A stretch of 64,000 bases of DNA from assembly GCA_004335835.1 (NCBI GenBank), contig RWJK01001984.1, positions 62,001-126,000 of the forward strand. Reading direction: 5' to 3'. Shown piece after piece: positions 1,127 through 60,100 of this stretch (position 1 is the first letter of the stretch; each line of letters opens with the position of its first letter). The notes under the pieces were generated by a model. It ran no database searches. It saw only the letters and a program-made list of their open reading frames with translations, and was not told the DNA's origin. Source of the stretch: Scenedesmus sp. ARA3. Lineage: Eukaryota; Chlorophyta; Chlorophyceae; Sphaeropleales; Scenedesmaceae. The translations under genes were made by a program, and so were the position numbers.

Positions 1127-4100
1127 TCATGCTGCTGCCTGCTGCCGCCGCGCCTCCAGCTCCTGCAGCTGCTGCGGCGTCAGCGCCGGCGCCACGCCAA
1201 TCATGCTGTCACGCGTCACCAGCTTGGCCAGCTGCAGCATGATGCGTGGCAGGGGCAGGGGTGGGAGTATAATTAAGATTAGGGGCACAGAAGAGGTGCA
1301 ACAACAAGAGGATCATGGTGATCACATGGCGTCAGCAGCAGAAGCAACAGCAGAAGCAGCAGCAGAAGCAGCACCACCAGCAGCAGTGACGGCTACCAAC
1401 AACTTGCGATGAAGAACCTGTTCAGCAATCAAGCACACCCATCCAGCTGCGCAGCTAGTCAAAACAGGTGTGCCACACAGCATAAACAGCAAGCTCGCTA
1501 AAAGCACCGTTGACTTGCGTGCAGCATATGGTGTACTGCGCTGTTGATGTGCGTGCAGCATATGGTGTGCCGCCCCACCTGCTCCTCGCTCCAGCCCTCA
1601 GTGCCGGCTGGGCGTGCAGGAATGACCATGTACCTGGCAGCAGCAGCAGCAGCAGCCGCAGCCGTACAGTGTAAGACTAGAACAACCTTGACCTCAGCAG
1701 CAAAGCACACATACAACCATGCTGTTGTGTGCCAGTGTTGCAAGCTATTGCCAGCCTGCAGAGCAGGAACTCGCATCCCGGAGCCGCATGTCTGTCAAGG
1801 GTGTCGACAGGACGTCCTGCACACATAACAGTGGCTGCAAAGTTGCACACATGGTCAGCATTGTACCCCGTCAACAAAAGTTAACACAATGCGGCCTCAC
1901 TGTGGAAGGCGTCAAAAGACAGGCATCAACAAGGAAACAAGCAGCACACAGTGCCCGCGTTACGCCCCAGCACTGTGTAGATCCACCGTAACAAATACCA
2001 ACAGGCTAGCCGCCCTGCTCTCACCTGAGGTCTGCTGTGCTGTCGTGCACGCGTATGGCTGTGCCTGGCACCAGTGTGGTGCCAAACTCTGCCAGCAGCC
2101 CGCGCGGGTCACGCACAGCACGCGCACGGTACGCCCTGCAGCAGCGCAGTGGTGGTTGCGAGGAAACTAACTGTCAGCTTTGTGCGTGCCACGTGAAAAG
2201 GTCAGACCTGGTGTTATAGTACCAGCACATCATCATCCTCCCCTCGCCCTCACCTGCCCCTGTACCAGTGCAGGATGATGCTCAGGCTGGAGAATATGTT
2301 GGGATGCAGAGTACAGTGCTCGCAGCAAGCACAGTCGCCGCACCAGTTGCTGGCTTGCTGCCTGTCTGCAAGTGTGCCATGTATAGCCCCCTGTACCATT
2401 GTGGGCTCATGCCCAGTATGCCTGCAGTGCTGTGCTTGCCAGCCACATCCGGTCAACAGAAACACAGCCGTGTAACTACAACACGGCTGCACTGCTGGCT
2501 GGCTGCCGCCCCTGCCCTCACCTGCCCCTGTACCAGTGCGGGCTCATGCCCAGGATGGAGCATAGCTTTGGGATGCAGAACACAGTGCTAACAGCAAAAC
2601 AATGTCAGTGTGCCGCCTCACCTGCCCCTGTACCAGTGTGGGCTCATGCCCAGGATGGAGATGGGGTAGCAGCTGCACAGCGTGCACACGATCAGGTTGT
2701 GCACCTTGCCTTCAACATTTTCAACAGCTGCAGCAGCAGTGCGACAGGGCGGCAGTGGGCGGCGCGGCAGCACATGCGTGCGGAGAGAGGCGACGCAATG
2801 GTGCTGAAAAGATTGCAGCCACATGCTGCCTGTGCCCTATGTTGTTGCGATGTTGATGATGGTGCATGGCGCAGGCCGGTTACGTGGGGCTTCAAATGAG
2901 AAAGTTCTTACGCGAAGCGCAGCTAACTGCGGCAGAGGATCAATTGGCCAACCTCAAAGACTGGCAGCGTTGGCTGAAGGCCCCAAACCTTACCTGTGAG
3001 GATGGTGCCACTCTTGGGCTGAGGCCCGGAGCCTGTAGGGGCTGGCGGTGGCGCTGCTGCTGCTGCTGAGCCTGGCTTAGGCGTGAAGTTGCTGGTGCTG
3101 ATGCCCATCTCTGCTGCTGCTGCCGACGTGTCCTGCAGGCAGCAAACAATGTGTGATGTCGGGCACGCTGCCTTGTCCTTTGCAAACCTGCTGGTTCAGA
3201 TGCAGATTGGCCAGAGCCCTGCCTGTGGCTGTGTATGTGCACCATGCATGCATGCTGTTTGTGCAGTACCGCGCGTGATATGAGGCCGACACAGACCCTC
3301 TGCCAGCACCCAGCAACCTACACCAACCTCGCCACGCACAATCTACACCAGCTGCCAAGCGCCGCACCCTAAAAGCGAATGCAACAACGCATCTAGCTGC
3401 ACGCACACTACTATATCACATGCTGGAGCACCACGGCGTAAGCCCTGCAACTCAGGCCTGACCCCTCAACAGCAGCCACACCTGCAGCAGCCGAGCCTTG
3501 AACTCAGGGTCCAGCCACGCGCGTGCCACCAGGCGCGGGCCCTCGCCCCGTGTGCCTCGAGCATCCATGGCCTCCACCTCGCTCCGCAGCTCCTGCAGCA
3601 GCAGCAGCAGCAGCAGCAGCAATCGGCAAGGGCACGAGGTAACACACACTTGCAAAAGACAGACAGCCGCTGCCCACCCGTAGATGCCGCGTAGGTGCAC
3701 TTAAGCTGCGGGGCAGCTGCTGACCTGCTTGGTCAGCAGCAGCGCTCTGTAAGCCCGCAGCACATCCTACAACTATTCAACATGCAGGTGACTGACCAAC
3801 TGCAACGAACCACACGCCACACGAATGAAGATATATACCTGCGGCGTGATGACTCCCTTTGCCAGCAGCAGCTTTTTGAGCGCCACGTAGGTTGTTGAGC
3901 CATCTGTCTCATCCCCCTCCAGCTCAACAGCCGCCTGCTCCACCTGGCAGTGGCAGCATCACAGTGCAGCACAACAGCAGCAAATAGCTAGGATGTCTTG
4001 GGGTTGTCAGGGTAGACAAGGCCTGCTTCTGTTGGTGACTGTGGTTGGTGGTGCGGGTGATGTTCGAGCACGCACGGTGTGCGCAAGGCGGCACCGACAT

Positions 4101-7100
4101 TGTGATCATGCTGTTGCTGCTGCTGCTGCTACTGCTGCTGCTGCTGCGCCTTCTGTGCCACCACAATGCCGCAACGCCAGCACACCACTCTAACTGCTGC
4201 TGGCTGCAACCCACCTTGCCTCGCGCCTCGTGCACGTGGTCCCCATGGTCAATCACACCCTCTTCATGATGGTGGTGGTTGTGGTGCTCGTGATGATGAT
4301 GGTGGTGATGGTGATGATGCTCGCCGTGCTCATGGCTGTGCCCGTGCTCGTGCTCATGTCCATGGCCATGTTCGTGTGCGTGTGCATGGCCCAGCTGCGC
4401 CTGCTGCGCCTCGCGTGCCGCCTTGCTGGCGTCCCGCTGCTGCTGCAGCTGCTCTTGGGTGGCCGGCTCCAGCCAGGGCTGGTACACCTCCACCTCCAGC
4501 GTGTCATTGGCGTCGCCTGTGTGTACGCAGAGCACAAATTCCCATCGGCTAAGAGCGTCTGCCGTGAGCGGAACTGCTGCCGGCGACGCAATAAAAAAGC
4601 GTTCATGTGGCGGCCGCACCCACGGCTTAAACAGTGCTGCGCAGGCTTCTGCTGTAAACCACATGCCCAGGACATGCCAAACTAATACAGTCATGCTAAA
4701 CAGGCGGCATGTGCAATGCGCTGCTGCAGCACAGCCCAGCAGCGCAAGCGTCGCAGCCGCAGCAGCTGGCTTACTCACCTTGGTACAGCTCCCACACGTC
4801 ACTCTGGTAGAACCGCACACTGCAAAAACGGCAGCAGCAGCAGCAGCAGGCATGTCATCAGCACGCATATCATCTTGAGCCTCATACATCATCTCGAACA
4901 TATACGCACATCGAAGACAGGTTCTGCGCACCACTGCTACCAGACGCTCAGCGGACTGCATGATGACTTCTGTGTTACCCTGGAAAAACATTCAAGCAAA
5001 AAAGCATGCACACAGGCATTTGCATACTCCCTAGCGCCCTGCAGCAAGCGCTCTCCTGCAGCCTGCTCACTCACCAGCGCAGCGGGTGCCCCAACTGCAA
5101 CCTTCCGACGCCCTTCTACACAAACAGACACGACTACACGAGACTCAACGCATGCCTGCACCCCCATATCCCCATCTTCCTTCAATTATTAATGTCCAGC
5201 ATGCACAATGCCTACAACTGCTTGCTACTACTTCGTACACAATAGATGTAATGGCCTGGTGAATTCAGTTTGACCTGCGCCTCACCGGTACAGCGGCTGG
5301 CGCGGCCCCTCCTCCCTGAAGGCCTTCAGCTCAGGGTTGCCAAACAGGCCCACACAGGGCCGCTCAATGACGCCCACCTGGCGGCAATGCAGCAGCATAC
5401 AGCAGTGGAACAAGCAGTTCAGCAACAGAGCCAGCACGACACAACAGGCCCGCACACGGGCGCTTAACGACGCCCACCTGGCGGGGTGTAATGCAGCACG
5501 ACGGAAAAAGCAGCAGGGCAGGGCATGTCAGCTTGGCTGGTGCTGGGGCGAGTGGCCGATTTGGTCACGCAGGCACTGACGCATGTTGCAGCGACCCCTG
5601 TACGTAATGCAGCTGCAGTTGTTGACTGCATCACTGCCATGCATCTGCACAAGTTCCATGTTTATTACTAGCGATGTGTTTCAGGCGTAACATGTGCAGC
5701 AGCAGCTTTGGTAGGCGGCAGATGGCAGTTGCGGTCAGCATTCACCTGCCCGAAGATGTAACCGGGTGTGCGCAGGTGGGGGCGGCGCCAGCGGATGGCG
5801 GCGTCCTCGGGCCTCACACGCACACAGTCGCCCTCATTGAACCTGCGCCACAGCACACGGCACAGAGCAGCACAGCACACTGTGGATTTCGCAGAAGCAC
5901 TTGTCTCCCGGTTTTTGGGGAGCCACATGACAGGCTCACTTAGCAGAGCAGGAAAAATCATGGACCAACACATCACATCACAGCACAGCATACAGTACAG
6001 CAAGCAAACAGTAGCTCAGCCTCCGCCACAGCCGCCACACAGCCAGGCAGCAGTCACTCAAGCCGCCATACAGCAGGCAGCACACGGCGGCAGGCACGGT
6101 GCCGACACTTTTGATCAACGCACACAGACAGGCCCACAGGCCCTCACAGCCGGCTGTGCTGGCAAACCACATTACAATGGCAGGTACTCGTCTGCACAAA
6201 CGACCTGCACACCGGCAGTTGCATAAGTGCGTGAGGCTTTGGCTAGCAGTAACAGTAAGTCCAGGCATCATGCTGTATGCGGCATGCTGTTGTTATGCAC
6301 ACAGCAGCTGCAGTACGCCTGGAACGCTGCTGCGCTGACGTGGCACCTACCTGGCGGTGTTGTCAAGTGTTGCTGGGTCGGGCCCCATTTGCGCGTCCAG
6401 CTCAGCATGTGTAAAAGTGCCCCGCTCAATGGCAATGGCTGCGCTGGCTGATGCCCACTTCTCATAGTAGCTCATGCTAGCGTAGCCTGTTTGTTTGCAG
6501 CGCAAAGGAGTAACAGTTGTTATGCACGAACACAGGTGAGCTTCAACAGTAAGCGTCACATACCACTGCATGCAAGTGATTGACAGTCCACTGCCTTTTC
6601 AAAGCTGCCAAGCAAACAGGGGCATCTAGTTCTGCCTTTGCTAGCGTGCATACAAAGCACAGAGGATTGCCACTTTAGGTTGCATATATGTCAGCTAACC
6701 CGCCCCACCTGGCAGTGCCTCTGTAGCCCGCCGCAGCTCATCCAGGCTCATGAGGCCCTTCTGCACCAGCAGCCTGCAGAACATCACAAGGCAATGCATT
6801 GCAGCAGCTTGTGGCAGGTGCACTAATGCAGCTGCTGGATGCAAGCACGCTGCTGCAGCACTGGCTGGCCTTGCATCCCATTGGAGACAAAGCACGGGGA
6901 TGATTGCTTGCAGGAATGCTGCAGAGTGATGCGGACGCTCAACGCGCGCTTGCGAGCCAGCAGCATAGTATCAGTTGTGACCCTGCCGCATGAACAGCCA
7001 CAAGGTTCAGCTAACAAAAAGGTGAAGCAGAAGGACTGGCTGGTACCAGGCCCTGCAGAATTCTAAGTACTTGCAGTCTCACCAGACCACGCCGTGGCAC

Positions 7101-7449
7101 TCGCGCTCCCATGCCTTCCAGGGGCGGTCACTCACGTCAATGGGGCCTGCAAGCAGACATAAATGAATTTGTGAGTTTGCATCCTGTTGACATACACAGC
7201 GAGCACCATGGTTGGACTACATGGCGGCATAGCAGGCATTCACATGCATCCCTGCATCCATCACAGCACACCAGCTATGTTGTGTTGATGGAACTGCCGT
7301 CATGCGTGCATGCAGGCACATCGTTGTCACCCTGAGGTGATGGGAGGGGCTGCATCCGTTGCAGTTGCACATTCACCGCAACCAGACAGCCTAGCCAGAG
7401 TACCTGGACGTAGTCCTCCCAAGTCATGTGGGCCGGTAGCTCGCTCCAT
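1127..7449 (-). CDS. Fused beta-alpha nitrile hydratase, cobalt type, His-rich linker
   Basis: Hydrates nitriles to amides. Fifteen exons read in phase from ATG 7449 to TGA 1127, giving 524 residues: 7404-7449, 7083-7146, 6709-6773, 6351-6486, 5746-5842, 5286-5377, 4779-4819, 4215-4516, 3839-3943, 3482-3592, 2994-3132, 2622-2727, 2025-2135, 1579-1633, 1127-1231. The beta part (about 1-205) has HDLGG near the start, LLVQKGLMSLDELRRA, SYYEKW, RTPGYIFG, GLFGNPEL and EVYQPWLEPA. The linker (about 206-281) has 30 His in 53 residues. The alpha part (282-524) has LVARAWLDPEFKARLL, the metal motif VCTLCSC at 413-419 (Thr marks the Co type), SPHWYRGR, AYRARAVRDPR, PARPAGTEGWSEEQ and TRDSMIGVA. A Pro/Ala/Gly-rich insert replaces part of the segment before the metal site. 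Beta-alpha fusion with a His-rich linker is known from the choanoflagellate Monosiga. The frame stays open upstream to 7785, so a longer Ala-rich N-terminus is possible. The related thiocyanate hydrolase is a less likely alternative. Confidence 0.95.
2249..2660 (-). repeat. Four copies of the exon 12 tail plus donor site
   Basis: The true exon end (2621-2660) encodes LGMSPHWYRG and the GTGAGG donor. A copy 100 bp further into the intron (2521-2560) differs at one base in 40. Degenerate copies lie at about 2387-2425 and 2249-2280. The first, second and last keep the donor sequence; the third has lost it. All sit in the intron after the active-site exon. Confidence 0.85.
2669..2689 (-). other. 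Nitrile hydratase metal-binding motif VCTLCSC
   Basis: These seven codons encode the Cys cluster that binds the non-corrin metal. In the family two of the cysteines are oxidised after translation to sulfenic and sulfinic acid. Thr in C-T-L-C-S-C is the cobalt form; iron enzymes have Ser there. Confidence 0.93.
3596..3619 (-). repeat. CTG array before a nitrile hydratase acceptor
   Basis: CAG repeats on the plus strand read as CTG on the sense strand. They run directly into the CTGCAG acceptor of the exon starting at 3592, in the place where a pyrimidine tract would be expected. Confidence 0.8.
4230..4388 (-). other. His-rich linker between beta and alpha domains
   Basis: Residues 224-276 of the fused nitrile hydratase contain 30 His, mostly as His-Glu, His-Gly and His-Ala pairs and one run of ten His. 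The segment lies inside one 302 bp exon whose flanks encode the beta C-terminus and the start of the alpha part, so it is translated. Metal binding is the natural inference, either for loading cobalt or for buffering it. Confidence 0.88.
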
Positions 7450-8011
7450 GCCTACAGCTGGTGCTGCTGCTGCTGCTGTTGCTGCTGCTGTTGCCGCTGC
7501 TGGTGTTGCTGCTGCTGCAGAGGCGGGCGGTGCGGTGTGCAGAGTATGCGACAACGGTGCGGAGAGTCTCAAATGGTTTCGTAGGATGCACCTGGCTGCC
7601 AACAACATGCTCAGCACATCTGCAAGCCACCGATCTGGTTCCGGTGATGCTGGCAATGGCTGGGATCTGAGCAGACGCCGGCACACAGAGCTGTAGCGTT
7701 CAACCGTCTCTATTACCTCTACTGCCAGTGCACTTAGCAGCCGACGGGCAATGTGTCCATCAGGGAGGGGTTTGGAAAAAAACACAGGACAACATGTTTG
7801 AAGGCAGGCAGGGCATCACCGCCCGAAGTCATTGCAACACGCAGGTTTACAGCATAGGAAACACGGTGTTAGAGCCCAGCCGGTGACGTACACGCATCTG
7901 TCGAAAGTCAAAACTCTTTGGCTGCTGCCCCGCCTGATCAAAAATGAATTCAAGTGTACAATGAGGCATACAGTTTTGGTAAATTTCCTATCTGTGGTCG
8001 TCTGACGGTCC
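7450..8011. promoter_or_regulatory. Shared divergent upstream region
   Basis: About 560 bp separate the start of the nitrile hydratase gene (leftward) from the first proposed exon of the reductase gene (rightward). I see no clear TATA box. A GCT/GTT repeat at about 7460-7518 would encode Ala and Thr in the nitrile hydratase frame if translation began further upstream. Confidence 0.4.
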
Positions 8012-35263: not shown

Positions 35264-37046
35264 ATGGCTCGCCGGCAACGCGAAAAAGAGGAGAGCGTAT
35301 ATGATTGGGGCAGGCTAGGCTCGGCACCTGCGGCCGGCGCTGCAGCACCTAAGGTGCAGACATACAATGTACCAGCACCAGCAGCAGCGCCCAAGGTGAA
35401 GATGCATGTGGACAGCTCACAGGTGAGCACATGCAGTAGAGAGTGTTCTCCGGTCATGCTTTGTATGCTGGTGACTATCGAACGCTAAACAGCGCATCAC
35501 CAGTCCTGTACAGCAATGTTTCAACAGCGTTCACTCGACATGCTTTACACAGTGGCCTGCTGTTGCAACCACTGCTACTTCAGGCGCAGCTGCACACCTG
35601 TGTTCAGCCATGCAAGGTGTTCAAGCATGCTGCAAGCACCATAGCTGACAGTAACGAGCATTGACTACAAACTGCACCCCTTCCACTTTGTGGTCACCTG
35701 CTGTGCAGCTGCCTGAACTTACCAGCTGCATGTCATGCTGTTGTCAAGAGCGCAATACTGTCCCCATACTGGCTCCGCAACATGCATCTGCTTCAGGTGG
35801 AGTCTATCTTGAACCCAGTGCGCGGCATCAGAGATGCTCAGGCACGTGCCGGCATCACACCCACCGACCACTCACGCCACAACATCCTAGCCATCAAGGA
35901 GCAGAGCAGGCTGAACGCGCTTCAAAAGCAGCAACAGGAGGAGCAGGCGCAGCAGCACCTCCGCCCGCAGATGCGGCGCACAACTTCAGGCTCAGCAGGA
36001 GGTGCAGGCCCCGGCGGGATCAACAGAACCCTGTCAGGCGGGGGCAGGGCAGCAGCAGCAGGAGCAGGCCGGCCAGTCATAGTTCGTTCTGTCTCTGGCA
36101 ATGCAGCGGCAGGCGGGCGCAGCGCTAGTGGTGGTGGCAGCAGTGACGGCAGGGACTTTGTGCAGGAGAACAAGGCAGCAGCAGCAGCAGCAAGCAGGCC
36201 AGTCAAGGCAGAGAGCAGGCAGGATAGCGGAGCAGCGTACCTGCAGAAGAGTGAGTACGGGCAGGTGCCTGGCTACCTGCTGCAGCGCAAGGTGGAGATG
36301 GCGCAGCAGGAGGCGGCGATGCAGGCAGCCAAGCAAGCAGCACAGATACCAGCAGGTGCGCGGTTGCGTGCGACCAATAATAGTGCAGCAGTTGCAACGG
36401 CCCTCACAGCATTCACGCCTGCGCCTGCCAGGTGCCTTCGGTTTGTTAGCATGTCGCTACATCGCACTCTGGTCGGCTGCGTGTGCACATCTGCGCCTAG
36501 CGCTCTTGCATGCACACAACTCCTTCCAGGGCACATACCTGCTTCTTGCACCAACCTCACATACACCTCCTTTACGGCGCACATTCCTGCAAGCGCAGGC
36601 CTGCGGCAGATGCCTGAGGCTGAGCGGCTGGCCACGCTGCAGCTGCTGGATGCCAACAAGGCCGAGGTGGAGGCCCGGCTGTCTGCACTACCCATAATCA
36701 TTGAGACGCCCAGCGCGGTGAGGCACGCTGCCAAACACGCAGGCGGGGCCTATTGCAGGCAGCGCTACAATGTGCCTTGGCACTGCCCACAGCAGTGTCT
36801 GCTGCTTACAGCGTTGAATGATACTGAGCGGCATTGCAACAATCAGGCTGCTTTCTTCTCTGCACACATGCATGCTGATGGCCTGCTTGACCAATGCCCA
36901 TGTGCCTGTCATGTCGCTACTGCTGCTCCTCATGTCTGCAGATCCGGCACAAGGATGAGCTGGAGCGCCGACTGCGGGAGATTGAGGATGCTCGCAGGAT
37001 TTTCAGCCGCCCAAATGTGCTGGTGCACGCTGGGCAGCAGCAGTAG
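35264..37046 (+). CDS. ENKUR: Enkurin (FAP106-like) axonemal protein
   Basis: Enkurin is a microtubule inner protein of ciliary doublets (FAP106 in Chlamydomonas), first described as a TRPC-channel adaptor. Four exons join in phase: 35264-35422, 35797-36355, 36599-36717, 36942-37046 (TAG), giving 313 residues. The N-terminus has ESVYDWG and a Pro/Ala segment. The middle is Gln-, Gly- and Arg-rich (about residues 90-190). The C-terminal enkurin domain begins at QVPGYLLQRKVEMAQQEAAM, continues with ERLATLQLLDANKAEVEARL and SALPIIIETPSA, and ends in ERRLREIEDARRIFSRPNVL. The first ATG in frame was chosen; a GTG lies six bases earlier. The exon 2 donor is followed by an open but non-conserved stretch, consistent with an intron. 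This gene argues that the organism builds cilia or retains ciliary genes. Confidence 0.9.
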
Positions 37047-37413
37047 TTGAGCAGTCTATGGCGAAAGGTAGCAGTACAAGCTGTGCAACGTTGCAGCGCT
37101 TTGTGAAAGTTCAGTGCAGGCACTTGTGGGGAGTTTTTGGGTGTCAATGTGCCTCTGCAGCTGCGATATGCAGTGTTTGTGTGGCATCTGCATGAATTGC
37201 TCATCGCTTTTATTGCTGGCCACTAGTCCAGTATGCGTGAGTGTGGCATAAATGGCTAGCCACGGGCACCCTTAGGGACATACAGACTGTTCCGTTTGCT
37301 GCTTGAGCTGAAGCATGTTTCACCGGGTTACATGCATTGAGCCGCTGCATACGCAGCTGGGTCAATTGTGTGCACAGGACCACATACGTGGTCACACAAT
37401 TCTCTCAGTCTGG

Positions 37414-39228: not shown

Positions 39229-42200
39229 TCACCTGCCCGCAGCGCCACCCCATGCCCCAGCTACATTACCCTGCCACATTGCTGGTGGCCCCGCCCCCTG
39301 CCAGCCATAGCCACCTGCTCCTGCTGGTGGTGGCAGCATCAGCGCAGACCCTGCGCCTGGTGCACCTGCCCCAAAGGCACCAGGAGGCATGCCCGTAGGC
39401 GCGCCACCAGGTGCACCTGCGCCAGCTGTGAGAGATGCTGCGCCATTTGAGCGCGTCATGCCCAGCACCACCGTCTTGACATGCCCCTCCACATCAACCT
39501 CGGCAGGCAGCTGGCTCAGCAGCCCCGCCACCGCCTTGCTGTCACGGTGCAGGCGGCGCGCATAGGGCCGGTACAGTGCCATCACAAACAGCACCATGCA
39601 GGCCAGGGAGATGACCAGCAGGATGATGTGCAGCTGCTTGACAGACTCAAGCCTGCAGAGCAGTAGGCAGGAAAGCACACATGTGGCCGACTCAGTCAAG
39701 ACACGACATGTTAAGCACTGCAACAAATGCTGATCACAATCGCTAGCAGACAGGCCAGGAGGAAGCAGTCTCTGTGCACCACACAGAGACATTGGCTGCC
39801 ATGTGGTCACTTGTGCTGGCGGTTCTGCTTGCTTGCGTTGTTGTTGCTGTGCAGGATGCGAAATTTCGCACCCACCTGCTGATGGTCCAACGCACAAATA
39901 GGTTTCCAGAATCTTTCAGGGCATCAAAGAGATCTGTGGCCACCACCTTGGTACTGTACACGTACCTGCAACAGAACGACACAACAATATCAATCGCAGC
40001 AGTTGAAGTTGATCCTACAAAATAAGCTGCATGTCTGCTTAACTTGGCAGTTTGTGTGCTACAGCTATGCTGGCAACAACGCAACATACTGTGATTCAGT
40101 ATGTGTGTGCTGTTGGCTCGCCCACAGGAACTACGTCCTTGCTTGTGCTGCAGATGCTAGTGTGTCTATTGCTGTGAATGCGTCGCTGCAGTGGAGCCGC
40201 TGCAGCTGCTGTGCCTGTCATCAGCCGTACGCAATATTTCCCAAGGCAGCAAAGTCTCAGGACTCACGAGGTGTGGTTCGCAAATGCCAGCTCATCCGGC
40301 AGGTTCACGAAAATCTGCAGCAACCAGCAGCAGGGTGTTCACTGTGGAGCCCATGTCCAATGGTGCACAGCACCTATACTATGTGCAAGTGGCTTCAAGG
40401 CACACAGCTTGTTGGCAGAAACTGCATGGGCAGCCTGGTATGCTGTGAGTCACTGTCCCTGCGTACCTCCATGTTATCCAAAAACCTGTTCATCATGGCA
40501 TCAATCCCTGCAGCAGCAACAACAGAATTGCTCAGCTTTGCGCAGTACATGTATCAAGAATAGTCACCGCCCTGCTGCTGCACCTACCACTGTGTGTGAT
40601 GGTGTACCACTCGCTGTCAGGGGGGTAGCAAGTGCTTTGATTTTTGCGCAGGCAGCGCGTTGTCTTGAAGAAGGCATCTGCAGGTCAGCAGCAAGCGGGC
40701 AGCATGCAACTGATATCTTGTTGACGTAAAGCATGGTGCATCAAGCCTAGCTGCATGTCGACATTCAGCTAGCAATGTGATGCCAGCAGCCACCATGCAG
40801 ATCATGTTGGCAGCATATGGTAAAAGCCCACCTGCTACGTCAGCATTGGTCAAGGCAGCCGCTGGGGCCACTGGATTGAAGGTGACTTGGACATCAGCCT
40901 GCAGGTGCAAGGAGTATGTCAGTTACGAGTGATCCTTGCAGATCTGTGCTGTGATTGTATTTACAACAAGGAGCTTACTGTTGCAGGTCAACATGAGGAA
41001 GACTCACCGCAAGCATCATTTTTCCGCCATACAGCAGAGTGTCATACTCCTGCCGCAGCTTCAGCAAGCGTGACCGCAGATTATTTCTGTGGAACTCATT
41101 GTCTGCAGCGTCTGTGCTGAAACCCAGCATGAGGGCTGCTAGCCTGCAGCGTGTTACACGGTACAACACGTGTGCTGACAGGTCAAGGGACGCCAGGGGC
41201 CCCTGCGAACAGCAACACCAACAGCAATTCTTTGATGTGTGATTTTTGCAAGCATTTGTGATTGCAGCCATAAGCATTCTCAACCATTAAGGCTTCTGGT
41301 GGACGTTGAAAGAGCTGCGCAGAGGTATATGCGGCAGCTGAAGTGGTTCTCACCTGCAGGCCCTTCAGGCTGTTCTGGGACACAGCAAAGATGACGACCA
41401 CCGCAGCCACCCACAGCAGCAGAGGCACCTGCAACCAGAGCAGGCGTGTGCAGCTCATGCATAATCGGTACAGCATTCAAAGTAAACATTGGCTGCTGTA
41501 AAAGCTTATGCGAGGTTGCCAGGACGAATATGTTACACTAAAGCTTGTGTACAGTGCGCCAGCAACACTTCGACAACCTGAGTAGACAACATCACCTTTG
41601 CTTGCCATGGAGCAATCAAATGCACAGCTTACAGACAATACGGGTGCTAGCAAGCTGCATCACACCAGTTCCACCAACTGACCATAAACCTCCACAGCAC
41701 GTTGTTGCTTGCCAGCAGCTTCTTGCCGTTGCGCTTGAACTTGGGGTCCAGCCAGCCAAACAGCGCCTTGTAGGCGGAGTGGCGCAGCGCGGCAAACCTG
41801 CTGACTGGGGGCTTCTTGGCAGCTGACAGCGCTGCCTTTGCTGTGCTGGACTTGCCCTTGAATTTGCCAGAGGAGCGCCCTGCTGCTTCTGAGCGGCGCT
41901 TGCCCTTCTTTTGCTTGCCTGGTGTGTCAGGCTCGTCTGCATTCTCCTCCGCATCCTCCTCTGAATCATCGCCTGCAGACACGCAGCACCAGGCACACGT
42001 GCGCAGGAACCTGCTGAAACTTTGCAAATTACGAAATGAGTGATAATGAGACACAGGCATGTTCCCGTTGTTATTGACAAAGCAGCAAGCCTTGCCAAAG
42101 CAAACTGCAGGACAGCTTTGCAGCAAGGTGCAGCCTGCACGTATACCCCACCATCGCCGCAAAATCCCAGATCCAGCAGCCCACCTTCAACCACCATGCG

Positions 42201-48200: not shown

Positions 48201-51200
48201 TGCCTGCGACTGAGGCACTGTTGGCTTCATTGAAGAACCTGCCAGCATGTCAACAAGAAATCATCAGGGAGCACATGGTGCGTCGATGCTGGTGCCAGTG
48301 CCACGTCAAGCAAGTTGTACACCCAGATAGACAACAGGTGATCAGCGGGACAGCATGACCTGCATTTGAAACGTGTGATATGTTCCCTGCATGATTATGA
48401 GCAGCTTGATGCGACACCACATTGATGTCGCACCTGTTGACGCCCTCCACATCTGTGCACAGGTTGCTGAAAGGCTGCCCCACCAGCTCGAACGCGTCCA
48501 AGCCAAAGCTGTCTGCAGTGCCGCGTTCACAGCACAAGATGATGCCACTGCTGTTGGTCCAGAAGCGCACTACTGCTCTGCCATCACTGATTGCTGGTGG
48601 CAGGCGCCGTATGAGGCCAATGAAAAGCATGTCGGCGCCGACTCCAGACAGTCGGGTTGCACACAGCATTATGGGGAACATGGAGCGATCCTGCAGACAA
48701 GTGGCAGCAGGTACGGCTGTGACTTGGCTGCTGCACTGTGCTGGACAGCCCTGCGCATTGTGCAGGCTGTGAAGACTGGTGCCTTTCTCAGTGAACCATA
48801 CGCAATCAGCAGCAGCACTTCAAGCACGTGGTTGTGATGTCTGTTGTCAGAGCAGCGGATGCAGCCCTTCCTGCAGCAGCCGTCTGGTTTGCCTACCTTG
48901 TGCAGCGCCACCATAGAACGCTTCTTGTTGGCTATGTGTGGGATGCCGGTTTGCACAAAGCGCTGCAAGAAGCAGGGACATACAAAGATGCCAGGTCAAG
49001 AGGTCTGAGAGCGCAGTATGTGTGAAGCAGACTTACTGCAACACGCACTTGCACAGCAGTATATGTGCTCTCAGCATGACCACCACCACAGGTAGGTTTT
49101 GCACTTGAACATTGTGAAACCGACCATAGCCAACTGCATCACCTACCTCCAGGAAGCTGTTGTGGTTGGTGCTGAAGGGTGGCGGCCTGCAGGGCATACC
49201 GATGTTGTGTAGTAAGCAGCACATGAATAGCCAGGCCTAGGTGATGTCAGCTGGGACAACACAAGGGCAGCCACTAGCAGCATTCAATGCTATTCACCTG
49301 TGCCTAGAGCATCTGCTCACTCACATGAGCACAGACACATTCTTGCCTTCCAGCTCTCCATTGTCATAACCAAACATGGTCTGAGCCGGGGCGTTGACCA
49401 TCAGGATGATGCCCTGGGTGTTGATGATCACCAGGCCGTCAATCTTTTCGTCGATGGAGCCAACAGCAGCTGCCAGAGCCTCTCCACCAGGCTGACCTGC
49501 TGTCATTGCCAGCAGGCCTTCACTGGTGCCCTGCTTAAGTGCCTCCTCATAATACTTGGCAGCAGTGCCTGGCTCGTTGCGCACGAACTCAAGGAAGCGG
49601 CCATACACCTTGAGCACCTTGCCGTTGCCAGGGTAGCGCTCCAAAACGCTACAGCATGAGGCACAATACAAGCAGCAACAATAGTGGGCGACCTGCTGGT
49701 GGATCGGCAACTGCCTGTCTGGTGTACGCCAGTGCCACTCCATTGCCCCAGACTTGCAAGGCAATCACAAGCAGCAGAAGTTGCGCATAAAGAAATGGCA
49801 GGGCATCTTGAGCCATGCATGTTTAAGCTTTAGAGTATATGTAGTGGCAGCTGTGAGCTTTCATCAAGACACTTACCGCCTGTACGTTGCAGTTGCGCGC
49901 TGCTCTGTCTCCTCCATCACCTCCAACTTGCCCTGCACATGTAGGCGGAAGCATCCAAGAAACTGGTCACGCATCAAACTCGGTGCATGTGCTTTGGTCA
50001 CTACATGTGAATGAGAGGCACGTGAGCGGCACAATCAAGATGCCACTAGAGAGGACGGCAGCAGATGATGCTTGTGTTGCTCAACAGCACGCATAAACAC
50101 TCATCCTATTCTGCTGCACATGCTCTCAACAAACATTGACTCACCAGCAAGTCCACAAATGCCACAGAGTCCCGCAGCAGGCTGTTCCAGAACTGGCGCT
50201 GCGCCATGAGCGCCAGCTTGTGCGTACGCACACATGCCCTGCAGAAAGCATGAGCACTCAGCAGTCAGAGCGAGCAGTAAGAGCCATGATCAACGGCATG
50301 CAGTGCAGTGGTCAAAGGACGAGTGAATGTTGTCAGCTGCTGGACGCTGACCCCATACCTGTAGTTGCGCTGGAACTCAACATAGCCCAACAGGTCCAGG
50401 CCATCGCCATCTGCAAGAGCAGGGCAAGCGAACACAGTGGCCGAAGTCATCAGCACATTCATCGTGTACACTGCTGTCGAAAGCACTTGAGTTTGCTGTA
50501 AATCACCAACATCCCAAAACCAAGCAATCGACTATCATCCAGTCCCAAATTGGTTTAAATTAACCAGGCCCTTGGCAGCCAGCAGCTGGGCAATCTCACC
50601 TCTCTTCAGCGCCTTGGCCAACTGCTGGGCCACAAAGATGTTGTAGTTGTCCAGCAGGCTGGGCTTAGCCTTTATAGCAAGCTGCATTTGAGTTTGCGCC
50701 GCCTGGCCGTCCTTGCGCACTTCAATCAGGAAGTTGGCATGCACCACCAGCAAGGCTGGGTTGTCTGGCATGCGTGCCATGGCACACTGCGGCAGACCAC
50801 AGCAAGCGGCAAAGCCTTCAGCTAAGGAATGTGTTGCGCATACGTAGGTGGTCAGCAGCTGGTTCTGATGTGATGCAGCAGTATTGTTACACTTGCAGGA
50901 AACCTGCTGGCTGCAGCACTGCTGCTTCGTACTGTGCCGGAGATCCTTGAAACATTATAGACGTTTGCAGCGTTGCTGTTGCTGCTGCTGCATTGCCATC
51001 CATGCTGCGCCAACACATGACAAAACAGATAAAGCGGCAGCAGCAGCAGCCGTTTTCTTACCTTCAGCACAAACTCCCCAAACTCTGCTGCCTGTGGGTC
51101 TGGCACCCCATCCTCATCCCACACGCGCATTTCGCGCAGCACCAGGGACACCTGCTCAACGTCCTTCCACCTGTGGACGGTTTTCAGATCCTTCATCATT

Positions 51201-57158: not shown

Positions 57159-60100
57159 TAGCGTCTAGCGTGGCATATCTGTGGCTACTTGTGGCAGGGC
57201 TTGTAGGTGACAGTTGCAAAACAGTGTCCAGTGTTGCCTCAGTAGCATGTTTACAGCATAACAGCAGCCACCAAACATCCAATTTGCAGACACGCAATCC
57301 TACTCACGTGGTGTGGTTGCCGAAGGCCAGATCATCAGGCAGATTGGCGAAGATCTGCATATGCAATAGGTTTCAAGGTAAGTTGCTGCACGGTCAAGCC
57401 AGAGGAGGAGCTGTTGTGCTGTGACGAAAACTTACTACAGCAGCAAGTGGCATCTGCGGTGCAAGTCATGCTGACATGGGCAAACGACATAACACTGCTG
57501 TGTGATCAGCTTCCGTGATGAGAGTCAGCGCTGGGTGGTAATCCTCACCTCCATCTTGTCTATATAGGCATTCATCATGGCGTCAATACCTGAAAAACAC
57601 ACATGCAGCACGCGTGGCATCAGAACTGCAAATGTTGACCAAAGAGCAGCATGTACTTGTGGCAAGGTCAGTGCCACTTCAACTTGCAGACCTCACCGCT
57701 GTGTGTCACAGAGTAGTACTCGCTGCCTGGCTTGAAGCACGTGCTCTGATCTTTGCGCAAGCATCGGTTTGTCTTGAAAAATGTATCTGCAGAGCATGCA
57801 CGTGGCACGTAAGCATAAAAGCAGTAAGGACACATTTGAGTGAGCTGCATAACCAGGACAAAAATCAGGGTTACCAGCTCTCAGGCTAATTTCAGGTTTA
57901 TTAGTAAAGCCAACAGGCAGGGTACGCATTGTGCCTTGTCTGTCTGCTGTGCTATGCTTCTGCACTGATTTGTTGAAGCAACCGACTCACCCGCCACATC
58001 GCCATTTGATAACGCGGCAGCTGGTGCAACGGGGTCAAAGGTTGCGTTGACGCCATCCTGCAGGAAGCAAATTAGCAGGCTCAGCACAGCGCACACACAC
58101 ATACACACAGCAAGGAGTTGCTGGTGACCAAGCAGCTTAGTTCTGCATTCTGTGATGTGACACACGGTTAAGATGATCAGCTGTGTTGCGAGGCTTGCTG
58201 ACGATGCCACGCACCGCTAGCAGCATCTTCCCGCCGTACATCAAAGTGCTGTAGTCCTGCCGCAGCAAGTCCAGCCGGTGCCGGAGCTCGGCCCTGTGCA
58301 ACTCATTCTCTGCAGCAGTCGTGCTGAAAGCAAGGAAATTGGCTGCCAGCCTGGCGCGTGTGATGCGGTACAGCACGTGCACTGACAAGTCAAGGGACGC
58401 CAGCGGGCCCTGCAGACAATAACAGCAGCACCCAAACACCTTGCGGCACTTGCACCTGAATGATACAAGATAATCATCGTAATCTGTTGGCCTGATGATC
58501 TCCTACGCGCATTCAAGCAGCAGCCACCTGGTGAAGCTGTTGTCATGCATTGGTATTGGGCAGTGCATGGCGCATGTTGCTGTATGCACTAAGCGCTCTC
58601 AGGAAAGCTCAAGTAACCTCACCTGCAGGCCCTTCAGGCTGTTCTGAGAAACAGCAAAGATGACAATCACTGCAGCCACCCACAGCAGAAGAGGCACCTG
58701 TGTGCAGCATAAAAGCAAGCATGGCATTCGTGAGAGCAGTCATGATAAGCAGGTTGACCTGCACGTGCTGGTTGGTGAATGGGAGCCGCTGTTCAAAAAG
58801 GCAGGAACGGCTTTGAGCAGGCTGACATCACAGAGAAGGCGACAGCCGAGGTTTGCCGGTGGATTGCCAGCATCCCTCACCATGAATCTCCACAGCACAT
58901 TGTTGCTTGCCAGCAGCTTCTTGCCATTGCGCTTGAACTTGGGGTCCAACCAGCCAAACAGCGCCTTGTAGGTGGAGTGGCACAGAGCCGCAAACTTGCT
59001 GACAGGGGCCTTCTTGGCAGCTGCCAGCGCTGCCTTTGCTGTGCTGGACTTGCCTTTGAGCTTGCCAGAGGAGCGCCCTGCTGCTTCTGAGCTACGCTTG
59101 CCCTTCTTCTGTGTGGCTGGTGTGTCAGGTTCTTCGGCATCCTCCTCTGAATCATCGCCTGCAGGTGCTCACCCACCAAGTCAGTACACCTTGCTGCCGA
59201 CTTTTAGCGTGCATGGTACAGGCCAATGCTGAAAGTGTACATACTACAACAGTGCATGTGACAGCATGCCCGAAAATTTGGGCTGGAGAAAATGTGGGCC
59301 AAGAATGTGACGCATGCAATCACAGCTTGTTATGTCCTTTTGTTAAAGTACTCTGATGCGAAATTGACGGCATCTTTGAGGCGAAAGCCCACACCTATGT
59401 TGACACAGTGGAACCCGCTGCGGTTGCACCAGCAGCATACCTGCCAGCGCCATGCGCACAGACTTGTGCTTCTTCTCTCCGTCTACTGCTGCTTCACTTC
59501 CTGAAGCTGGATCTGCAGTGCCACCCGCTGCTGCCTCTACCAGCTCCATGTCATCCTCGTCCACCTCCTCTCTGCTGTCGTCGTCAACCTGTAGCTGCCG
59601 CGCCGCCATGAGCCGCACAGTGGCGCTGGGCAGCGCCAGGAACACGCTGAACAGGCGCATGTGGGACACGTTGCAGCGTTGCAGCAGGTAGAACTCGTAC
59701 GCCATGCAGCCCAGCTGCACGACGAGTGCCTGCAGAGTGGCAATTGGTTGCACACGCTTCTTGTTACACCGACTGCAACGCCAGCTGTACAGAACATCAT
59801 AAACAACTTCATGTGCTGGCACATCAGAAGTGCTGCTCATGTGTATGAAAGCCAAGGTCAAGTTGGGTGTATCTGCTTGCTGCTCTGCCTTGTCTCACCT
59901 CAACCACAAGCAAGAGTACTATTGTGAGGGAAAGGCCGGTCAGGTCCCTCCAGGTGTAGTCAACAAAGGTGTCCAAAGCTGCAACAAACAGACAGGCAGG
60001 TGCAGCAGCGGCGTTCGTTGGCTGACAGTAATATTTACCAACACGCAATTCCATCAAGTAGTTCCAATTGGGCTGCCTAACTGTGTGCAGCCAGGCTGCA

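Follow-up and report, generated by a model that had tools for sequence, protein, structure and literature searches.

Does a gene on the minus strand at positions 1127 to 7449 of a 64,000-nucleotide (nt) window of Scenedesmus sp. ARA3 DNA (contig RWJK01001984.1; "the window" is this whole stretch) encode a complete nitrile hydratase with its beta and alpha subunits fused in one chain, and, if so, from where did the fusion and the His-rich linker between its two halves come? The predicted exon structure, domains and relatives described below support the reading that this green alga has a complete gene for a nitrile hydratase with beta and alpha fused. The locus as a whole is very probably an ordinary nuclear gene of Tetradesmus obliquus, or of a very close strain, encoding a cobalt nitrile hydratase of the eukaryote type. 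The gene as such is no novelty: the enzyme family is known, the protein has been deposited and many green algae have the gene. Papers from 2008 (PMC2603476) and 2012 (PMC3323583) already described the beta-alpha fusion in eukaryotes, and no paper on this Tetradesmus gene was found among the literature matches listed.

Exon structure and predicted enzyme

The coding sequence rebuilt from the DNA comprises 1,575 nt (524 codons and a stop), runs from an ATG at 7449 to a TGA ending at 1127, and contains no internal stops, compared to 11 and 27 stops in its two other frames. The GC content of its third codon positions was 0.74. All 14 predicted introns, each 222 to 508 nt long, begin with GT and end with AG. 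A sequence-only reading of this locus, which left the strand unstated, had joined fifteen exons into a 524-residue protein with no phase error, and the rebuilt model bore this out; HDLGG, SYYEKW, GLFGNPEL, VCTLCSC and the His-rich linker, which it had listed as landmarks, were all present in the rebuilt protein. The "CTG acceptors" that it described were really ordinary acceptors ending in CAG, although several of them do come after CTG tracts. The T. obliquus protein OEZ85_003011 (P0001), which is called a "hypothetical protein" at NCBI and a "nitrile hydratase" in UniRef, is also 524 residues long, matches over its full length with the same start and end, and is 99% identical, differing only by substitutions at positions 145, 171, 260 and 457. 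Because P0001 has equal length and only these four differences, chance assembly of the exon model is very unlikely, and a separate annotation had therefore arrived at the same protein. Exon 8 encodes the last part of beta together with the His-rich linker, and since its 302 nt are not a multiple of three, skipping it would break the frame without giving two tidy subunits.

Pfam searches were run on the near-identical P0001, and the resulting domains were then placed on the exons of the rebuilt gene (Table 1). The beta N-terminal (beta-N), beta C-terminal (beta-C) and alpha domains each exceeded the curated cut-off and lay in one open frame, with beta first. The 91-residue linker of the window protein contains 30 His, and AlphaFold confidence was mostly low there. 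For comparison we used a fused set of 121 proteins, made up of the window protein and 120 listed of 604 matches, and an alignment (A1) of 23 of the 120, picked for spread. The metal-site motif VCTLCSC was invariant among the proteins of A1, as were beta R51 and R128, which align with R52 and R149 of the Pseudomonas putida beta subunit and which we take to be equivalent to the arginines by which beta subunits hold oxidised cysteines. Bacterial cobalt-type enzymes such as that of P. putida (3qxe) share with the predicted protein the fold, the metal motif, these arginines and a His-rich stretch at the alpha N terminus, but are encoded by two genes and are matured by a separate activator, P14K, for which no algal counterpart was found in searches that were weak.

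Some measurements told against assigning the protein to the nitrile hydratases. The NCBIfam equivalog cut-offs were missed by both halves (alpha, 224.1 versus 249.85 bits; beta, 101.8 versus 152.2 bits); these models, made for prokaryotic annotation of separate subunits, each matched P0001 in two stretches. The beta half of the AlphaFold model superposed poorly overall, with a root mean square deviation of 12.6 Å for the best beta match, and for this reason the position of the beta arm is not settled. The gamma subunit of thiocyanate hydrolase also matches the alpha part, which would fit a thiocyanate hydrolase or another enzyme with the nitrile hydratase fold. However, the nitrile hydratase alpha model scored higher (224 versus 188 bits), the best PDB match was a cobalt-type nitrile hydratase, and the beta-C-like and beta-N-like parts, which are separate chains in the thiocyanate hydrolase PDB entries, form one chain here, making such an identity very unlikely compared to a nitrile hydratase. 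We also considered that the gene might be a non-functional copy, decaying or mis-spliced, as introns 5 and 12 contain degenerate copies of exon edges. Against this, the frame is uninterrupted, the metal ligands and beta arginines are intact and the T. obliquus record is of equal length with four substitutions only. Moreover, the assembly, with 87 Mb in 1,567 contigs, yielded four matches to nitrile hydratase alpha, all of them within this gene and none from a second one, so that no spare copy was seen that could relax selection. Decay is therefore given only a slim chance.

The nitrile hydration activity, the metal, the subcellular place and any role of the linker with cobalt are what we infer from the sequence of this nitrile hydratase. 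Beta and alpha would be made as a single chain, beta first, and each such chain would fold into one alpha-beta pair joined by a tether. Low-spin Co(III) would be bound by the three CTLCSC cysteines, of which two would be oxidised and held in place by Arg51 and Arg128 of beta, and the Co(III) in alpha would activate the nitrile, with water addition giving the amide. An amide could be processed further, because the alga's own genome has matches to the CobW, nitrilase and amidase families (families only). An aldoxime dehydratase partner gave no match in a search whose control likewise matched nowhere.

Placement among eukaryotic and bacterial nitrile hydratases

The named green algae with fused proteins included Raphidocelis subcapitata, Chlamydomonas leiostraca (from MMETSP), C. 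eustigma, Myrmecia bisecta, Haematococcus lacustris, Sanguina aurantia, two Trebouxia, Coccomyxa viridis and Apatococcus, and Polarella, Hyaloraphidium, Didymodactylos, Adineta and Sphaeroforma were further matches among those listed. The record labels Astpho2, Botrbrau1 and Phypoly presumably stand for Asterochloris, Botryococcus and Physarum. The rarity implied by the sequence-only reading was thus not upheld, the protein being already deposited and fused homologues being present in many green algae and in other eukaryotes. The green-algal proteins share with the window protein the order beta, His-rich linker, alpha, as well as CTLCSC and a long insert before the metal site, but those of Raphidocelis, C. 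leiostraca, Myrmecia, Haematococcus, Trebouxia and Coccomyxa are only 45 to 56% identical to it and differ in linker length and His count. A paper on Coccomyxa viridis calls nitrile hydratases "typical in lichen photobionts" (PMC10693582).

A beta-plus-alpha tree (FastTree, 386 columns) retained 111 of the 121 fused proteins but, as the beta profile gives poor coverage of bacterial beta, only 8 of the 80 bacterial pairs; bacteria were therefore placed with alpha alone. The window protein grouped first with P0001 (support, 0.999) and then with P0002 (0.994), Raphidocelis (0.978) and Sanguina (0.773). The clade of 20 (0.978) contained the window protein, 11 proteins named as green algal, 2 labelled Astpho2 and 6 without a species label; P0002, P0005, P0007, P0009, P0011 and P0020 were counted as green from their tree position. 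When alpha was used alone, the smallest clade holding the green members also took in P0015, P0022 and P0045 (0.892). The distance between the alpha-helix and metal-site anchors, for which 7 of the 121 fused proteins gave no value, was 60 to 120 residues in 20 of the 21 proteins of the green set, compared to a median of 48 in the 93 others. The exceptions were P0005, which is green and lacks the long insert, and seven non-green proteins with more than 50 residues, three of these at 64.

The named species belong, as we take it, to the Chlorophyceae and Trebouxiophyceae, and Tetradesmus is placed in the Chlorophyceae (Sphaeropleales). Because one clade spans both classes and nearly all of its members have the long insert, the fused nitrile hydratase probably goes far back among core green algae. 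Vertical inheritance within green algae is the most likely history of the gene. Its occurrence across both classes helps to fill a gap named by Marron et al. in 2012, who listed archaeplastids other than land plants as unsampled (PMC3323583).

One Prasinococcus-labelled protein in the beta-plus-alpha tree (P0080), the label presumably denoting a prasinophyte, lies outside the green clade of 20 and carries an additional C-terminal HAD-hydrolase domain after the fused nitrile hydratase.

The nitrile hydratase family is mainly bacterial, and the bacterial alpha protein P0128 is 58% identical to the alpha part, both of which would favor contamination by bacterial DNA or a recent transfer from bacteria. 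This explanation was rejected on the introns, the contig and the tree: the gene has 14 introns and lies on a 142-kb contig, the protein is 99% identical to a T. obliquus protein encoded on a 6.7-Mb contig and is nested within the green-algal clade, and no full fusion was present in the best 80 bacterial loci, leaving contamination or transfer a negligible probability. The claim that this is a settled nuclear gene and not bacterial contamination was likewise upheld by the 14 predicted GT-AG introns, the contig and the green-algal tree placement. No match was found in phages, and among viral genomes in IMG/VR 21 pattern matches yielded no confirmed carrier.

A protein search against eukaryotic and bacterial nitrile hydratases followed by a tree, the check proposed with the sequence-only reading, grouped the window protein with the eukaryotic fused proteins. 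All 119 fused proteins in the alpha tree lay on one side of a split with a support of 0.986 (unrooted; 0.793 after re-rooting), a side on which 2 of the 80 bacterial loci and, from a second search, 11 of 118 proteins also fell. Two features of the trees weaken the case for a single origin of the fusion. L067, from a metagenome-assembled genome of Ectothiorhodospiraceae, and L072, from Beijerinckia sp. L45, lie among the eukaryotic proteins in the alpha tree, where they pair with each other at 0.99 and join nine eukaryote-type proteins at 0.728. In addition, the beta-plus-alpha tree leaves fused and bacterial proteins unseparated, since the smallest side with all 8 bacteria takes in 18 fused proteins (0.18). 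A single origin of the fusion is likely yet not settled, because the alpha split includes L067 and L072 and because the beta-plus-alpha value is so low.

The His-rich linker and its possible bacterial source

We then compared the locus to the best 80 of at least 587 confirmed GTDB loci, and none of these 80 had a full beta-alpha open frame. The beta-N domain was fused to alpha in two of them (L045 and L063), and Roseomonadaceae-named proteins such as P0137 and P0163, like the fused eukaryotic proteins, carry beta-N and alpha in one chain, but these are bacterial proteins of about 330 residues in which no beta-C domain was found. P0145 is likewise a beta-N/alpha fusion of about 330 residues without beta-C. 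In P0137 the two parts are joined by a His-rich stretch. The statement that bacterial enzymes use separate subunits thus held, in the best 80 loci, for full fusions but not for these partial beta-N/His/alpha fusions of Roseomonadaceae.

Beta lay just upstream of alpha in 72 of 79 GTDB loci, with a median of 84 nt (18 to 279) from the beta stop to the alpha domain; a beta-alpha order is known for most cobalt-type operons (PMC7193024). The N-terminal tail of the bacterial alpha, which this stretch encodes, had at least three His in 77 of the 80 loci and was 19% His compared to 1.6% within the alpha domain. Tails were counted from the most distant Met found within 45 residues, or taken as 45 residues long where there was none, so that some reach beyond the true start. 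A search with the algal alpha part returned 118 proteins, of which 19 were skipped (beta part present or no alpha match), and His tails were found in 91 of the remaining 99 cobalt-type single-alpha proteins, which include a few eukaryotic ones. With an Fe-type query, His tails were found in 2 of 82 Fe-type proteins and, as a point against a general cobalt-type tail, in only 5 of 37 cobalt-type proteins. Given 91 of 99 versus 5 of 37, the His tail belongs to a part of the cobalt-type enzymes, those nearest to the eukaryotic ones. The alpha protein of L072 is without one. Among the fused proteins, linkers had at least five His in 104 of 121 cases (median, 11 His), with both length and count varying, and the linker corresponds in position to the tail, rich in His, at the N terminus of the closest cobalt-type alpha proteins of bacteria.

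Among the groups with examples of His-rich linkers are, as we take it, green algae, rotifers, a chytrid and a dinoflagellate. As a character of opisthokonts, the linker is not supported by these sequence data, and its His richness is a poor opisthokont marker. Marron et al. took the His-rich stretch as such a character (PMC3323583). The protein of the choanoflagellate Monosiga brevicollis (PMC2603476) and the family described in 2012 (PMC3323583) are like the window protein in having beta first, a His-rich linker and a cobalt-type motif, but the Monosiga gene has one intron, compared to 14 here. Of the sequence-only comparison to Monosiga, the common order stood, whereas the linker proved not to be special to it.

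Foerstner et al. invoked an additional inversion to explain the origin of the fusion (PMC2603476). Since beta already lies first in the bacterial loci, an additional inversion is unnecessary, and because beta lies just upstream of alpha in most of them, loss of the beta stop could yield the fusion and the linker together. On this circumstantial evidence, we interpret the His-rich linker as what was once the His-rich tail at the N terminus of a cobalt-type alpha from bacteria, captured when the beta stop was lost. This correspondence offers a simple, testable route to the fusion; like the finding that the His-rich linker is no opisthokont trait, it goes slightly beyond what we found in print, and it is the only part of our results with some fresh interest, no statement equating the linker with the bacterial alpha tail having been found in the accessible literature, from which subscription papers are mostly absent.

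A further step, that a single loss of the beta stop turned the captured tail into an in-cis cobalt-loading arm replacing both the activator and alpha-subunit exchange, is possible but somewhat doubtful. Exchange would be replaced because a covalent fusion makes it awkward, and if the proposal is true, the beta-N/His/alpha proteins of Roseomonadaceae would show that this step took place a second time, independently. The flexible linker may help to gather cobalt but is probably not essential. Published experiments weigh against a loading role: the His17 stretch of Monosiga is dispensable for metal incorporation (PMC7193024, reporting Yang 2018), and P14K is still required when P. putida beta and alpha are artificially fused through a two-residue linker (PMC4709657). 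Neither affects tail capture itself. The three-subunit enzyme of Streptomyces canus, said to resemble eukaryotic nitrile hydratase, incorporates cobalt in vitro with no activator present (PMC7329996). In the alga's own genome, searches for a separate activator gene gave no match with TIGR03889 and only exon 4 of this gene with PF21006; these exon-wise searches were weak, and their controls matched nowhere.

Start codon, intron repeats and the rest of the window

The ATG at 7449 is the likely start codon, although the sequence context is not decisive because this ATG has G at -3 and +4, compared to A at -3 for an in-frame ATG upstream at 7608. Translation from the latter would add a 53-residue Ala-rich, acid-free presequence and could direct the enzyme to an organelle. 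Such targeting would agree with the A at -3 and with the extension itself, which is like a targeting peptide in composition (no Asp or Glu, 3 Arg and 21 Ala), and at least 25 residues, some presequence-like, precede the beta domain in 40 of the 121 fused proteins. However, the annotated T. obliquus protein, P0002 and the proteins of Raphidocelis and C. leiostraca (MMETSP sourced) start right at the beta domain, and poly-Ala could be explained here by CAG repeats alone, so that we consider an organelle-targeted form unlikely.

Table 1. Features of the nitrile hydratase locus and other stretches, in window coordinates
Feature	Position	Strand	Remark
Fused beta-alpha nitrile hydratase gene	1127..7449	minus	15 exons, 524 residues; 4 substitutions versus T. 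obliquus P0001
Exons 1-5	7449-7404, 7146-7083, 6773-6709, 6486-6351, 5842-5746	minus	model rebuilt from DNA
Exons 6-10	5377-5286, 4819-4779, 4516-4215, 3943-3839, 3592-3482	minus	model rebuilt from DNA
Exons 11-15	3132-2994, 2727-2622, 2135-2025, 1633-1579, 1231-1127	minus	model rebuilt from DNA
Exon 1, likely ATG at 7449, context GTAGGCATGG	7404..7449	minus	P0001 has the same start
Possible alternative N-terminal extension, 53 residues	7450..7608	minus	in-frame upstream ATG at 7608
Beta N-terminal domain, residues ~6-93, exons 1-4	6383..7434	minus	Pfam PF21006
Beta C-terminal domain, residues ~99-198, end of exon 4 to start of exon 8	4464..6367	minus	Pfam PF02211
Exon 8: end of beta and His-rich linker, with beta-alpha junction inside	4215..4516	minus	
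His-rich linker core, residues ~223-276, DHGDHVH at its end	4230..4391	minus	
Alpha domain, residues ~299-504, exons 9-15	1190..3892	minus	Pfam PF02979
Ala/Pro-rich insert, alpha N-terminal helices to metal site	3004..3096	minus	long in green-algal set; alignment A1
Metal-site motif V-C-T-L-C-S-C, residues 413-419, cobalt type	2669..2689	minus	
Three degenerate copies of exon 12 3' end, intron 12	2241-2303, 2388-2420, 2509-2571	minus	repeat families D4, D6
Degenerate copy of exon 6 5' end with acceptor, intron 5	5443..5484	minus	repeat family D7, 88%
TmcB-type TPR/PAS stretch	49324-49764	minus	
Two stretches with common GDDSEEDAEE..EPDTP sequence	41650-42186, 58743-59168	minus	
Open frame with Enkurin domain	35665-37047	plus	E 1.6e-10

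The outer two of the three exon 12 copies in intron 12 include the donor site, and introns 5 and 12 each have one exon-edge copy exactly 100 nt from the true edge, that in intron 5 lying upstream of exon 6. Use of the exon 12 and exon 6 copies as mutually exclusive exons was considered and rejected, as an in-frame TGA follows the true exon 12 donor and the 100-nt spacings shift the frame; the exon 12 copies are read as non-coding because this TGA is met at once beyond the donor, and the exon 6 copy is taken to be non-coding too. Neither intron 5 nor intron 12 had a match outside this gene in a search that skips common words, and intron 12 folded no better than shuffled sequences (z, 0.56).

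No tRNA was found in the window. The TPR/PAS stretch and the two stretches with the common GDDSEEDAEE..EPDTP sequence suggest that the minus strand carries large repeated genes. On the plus strand, one open frame carries an Enkurin domain, which is calmodulin binding according to Pfam.

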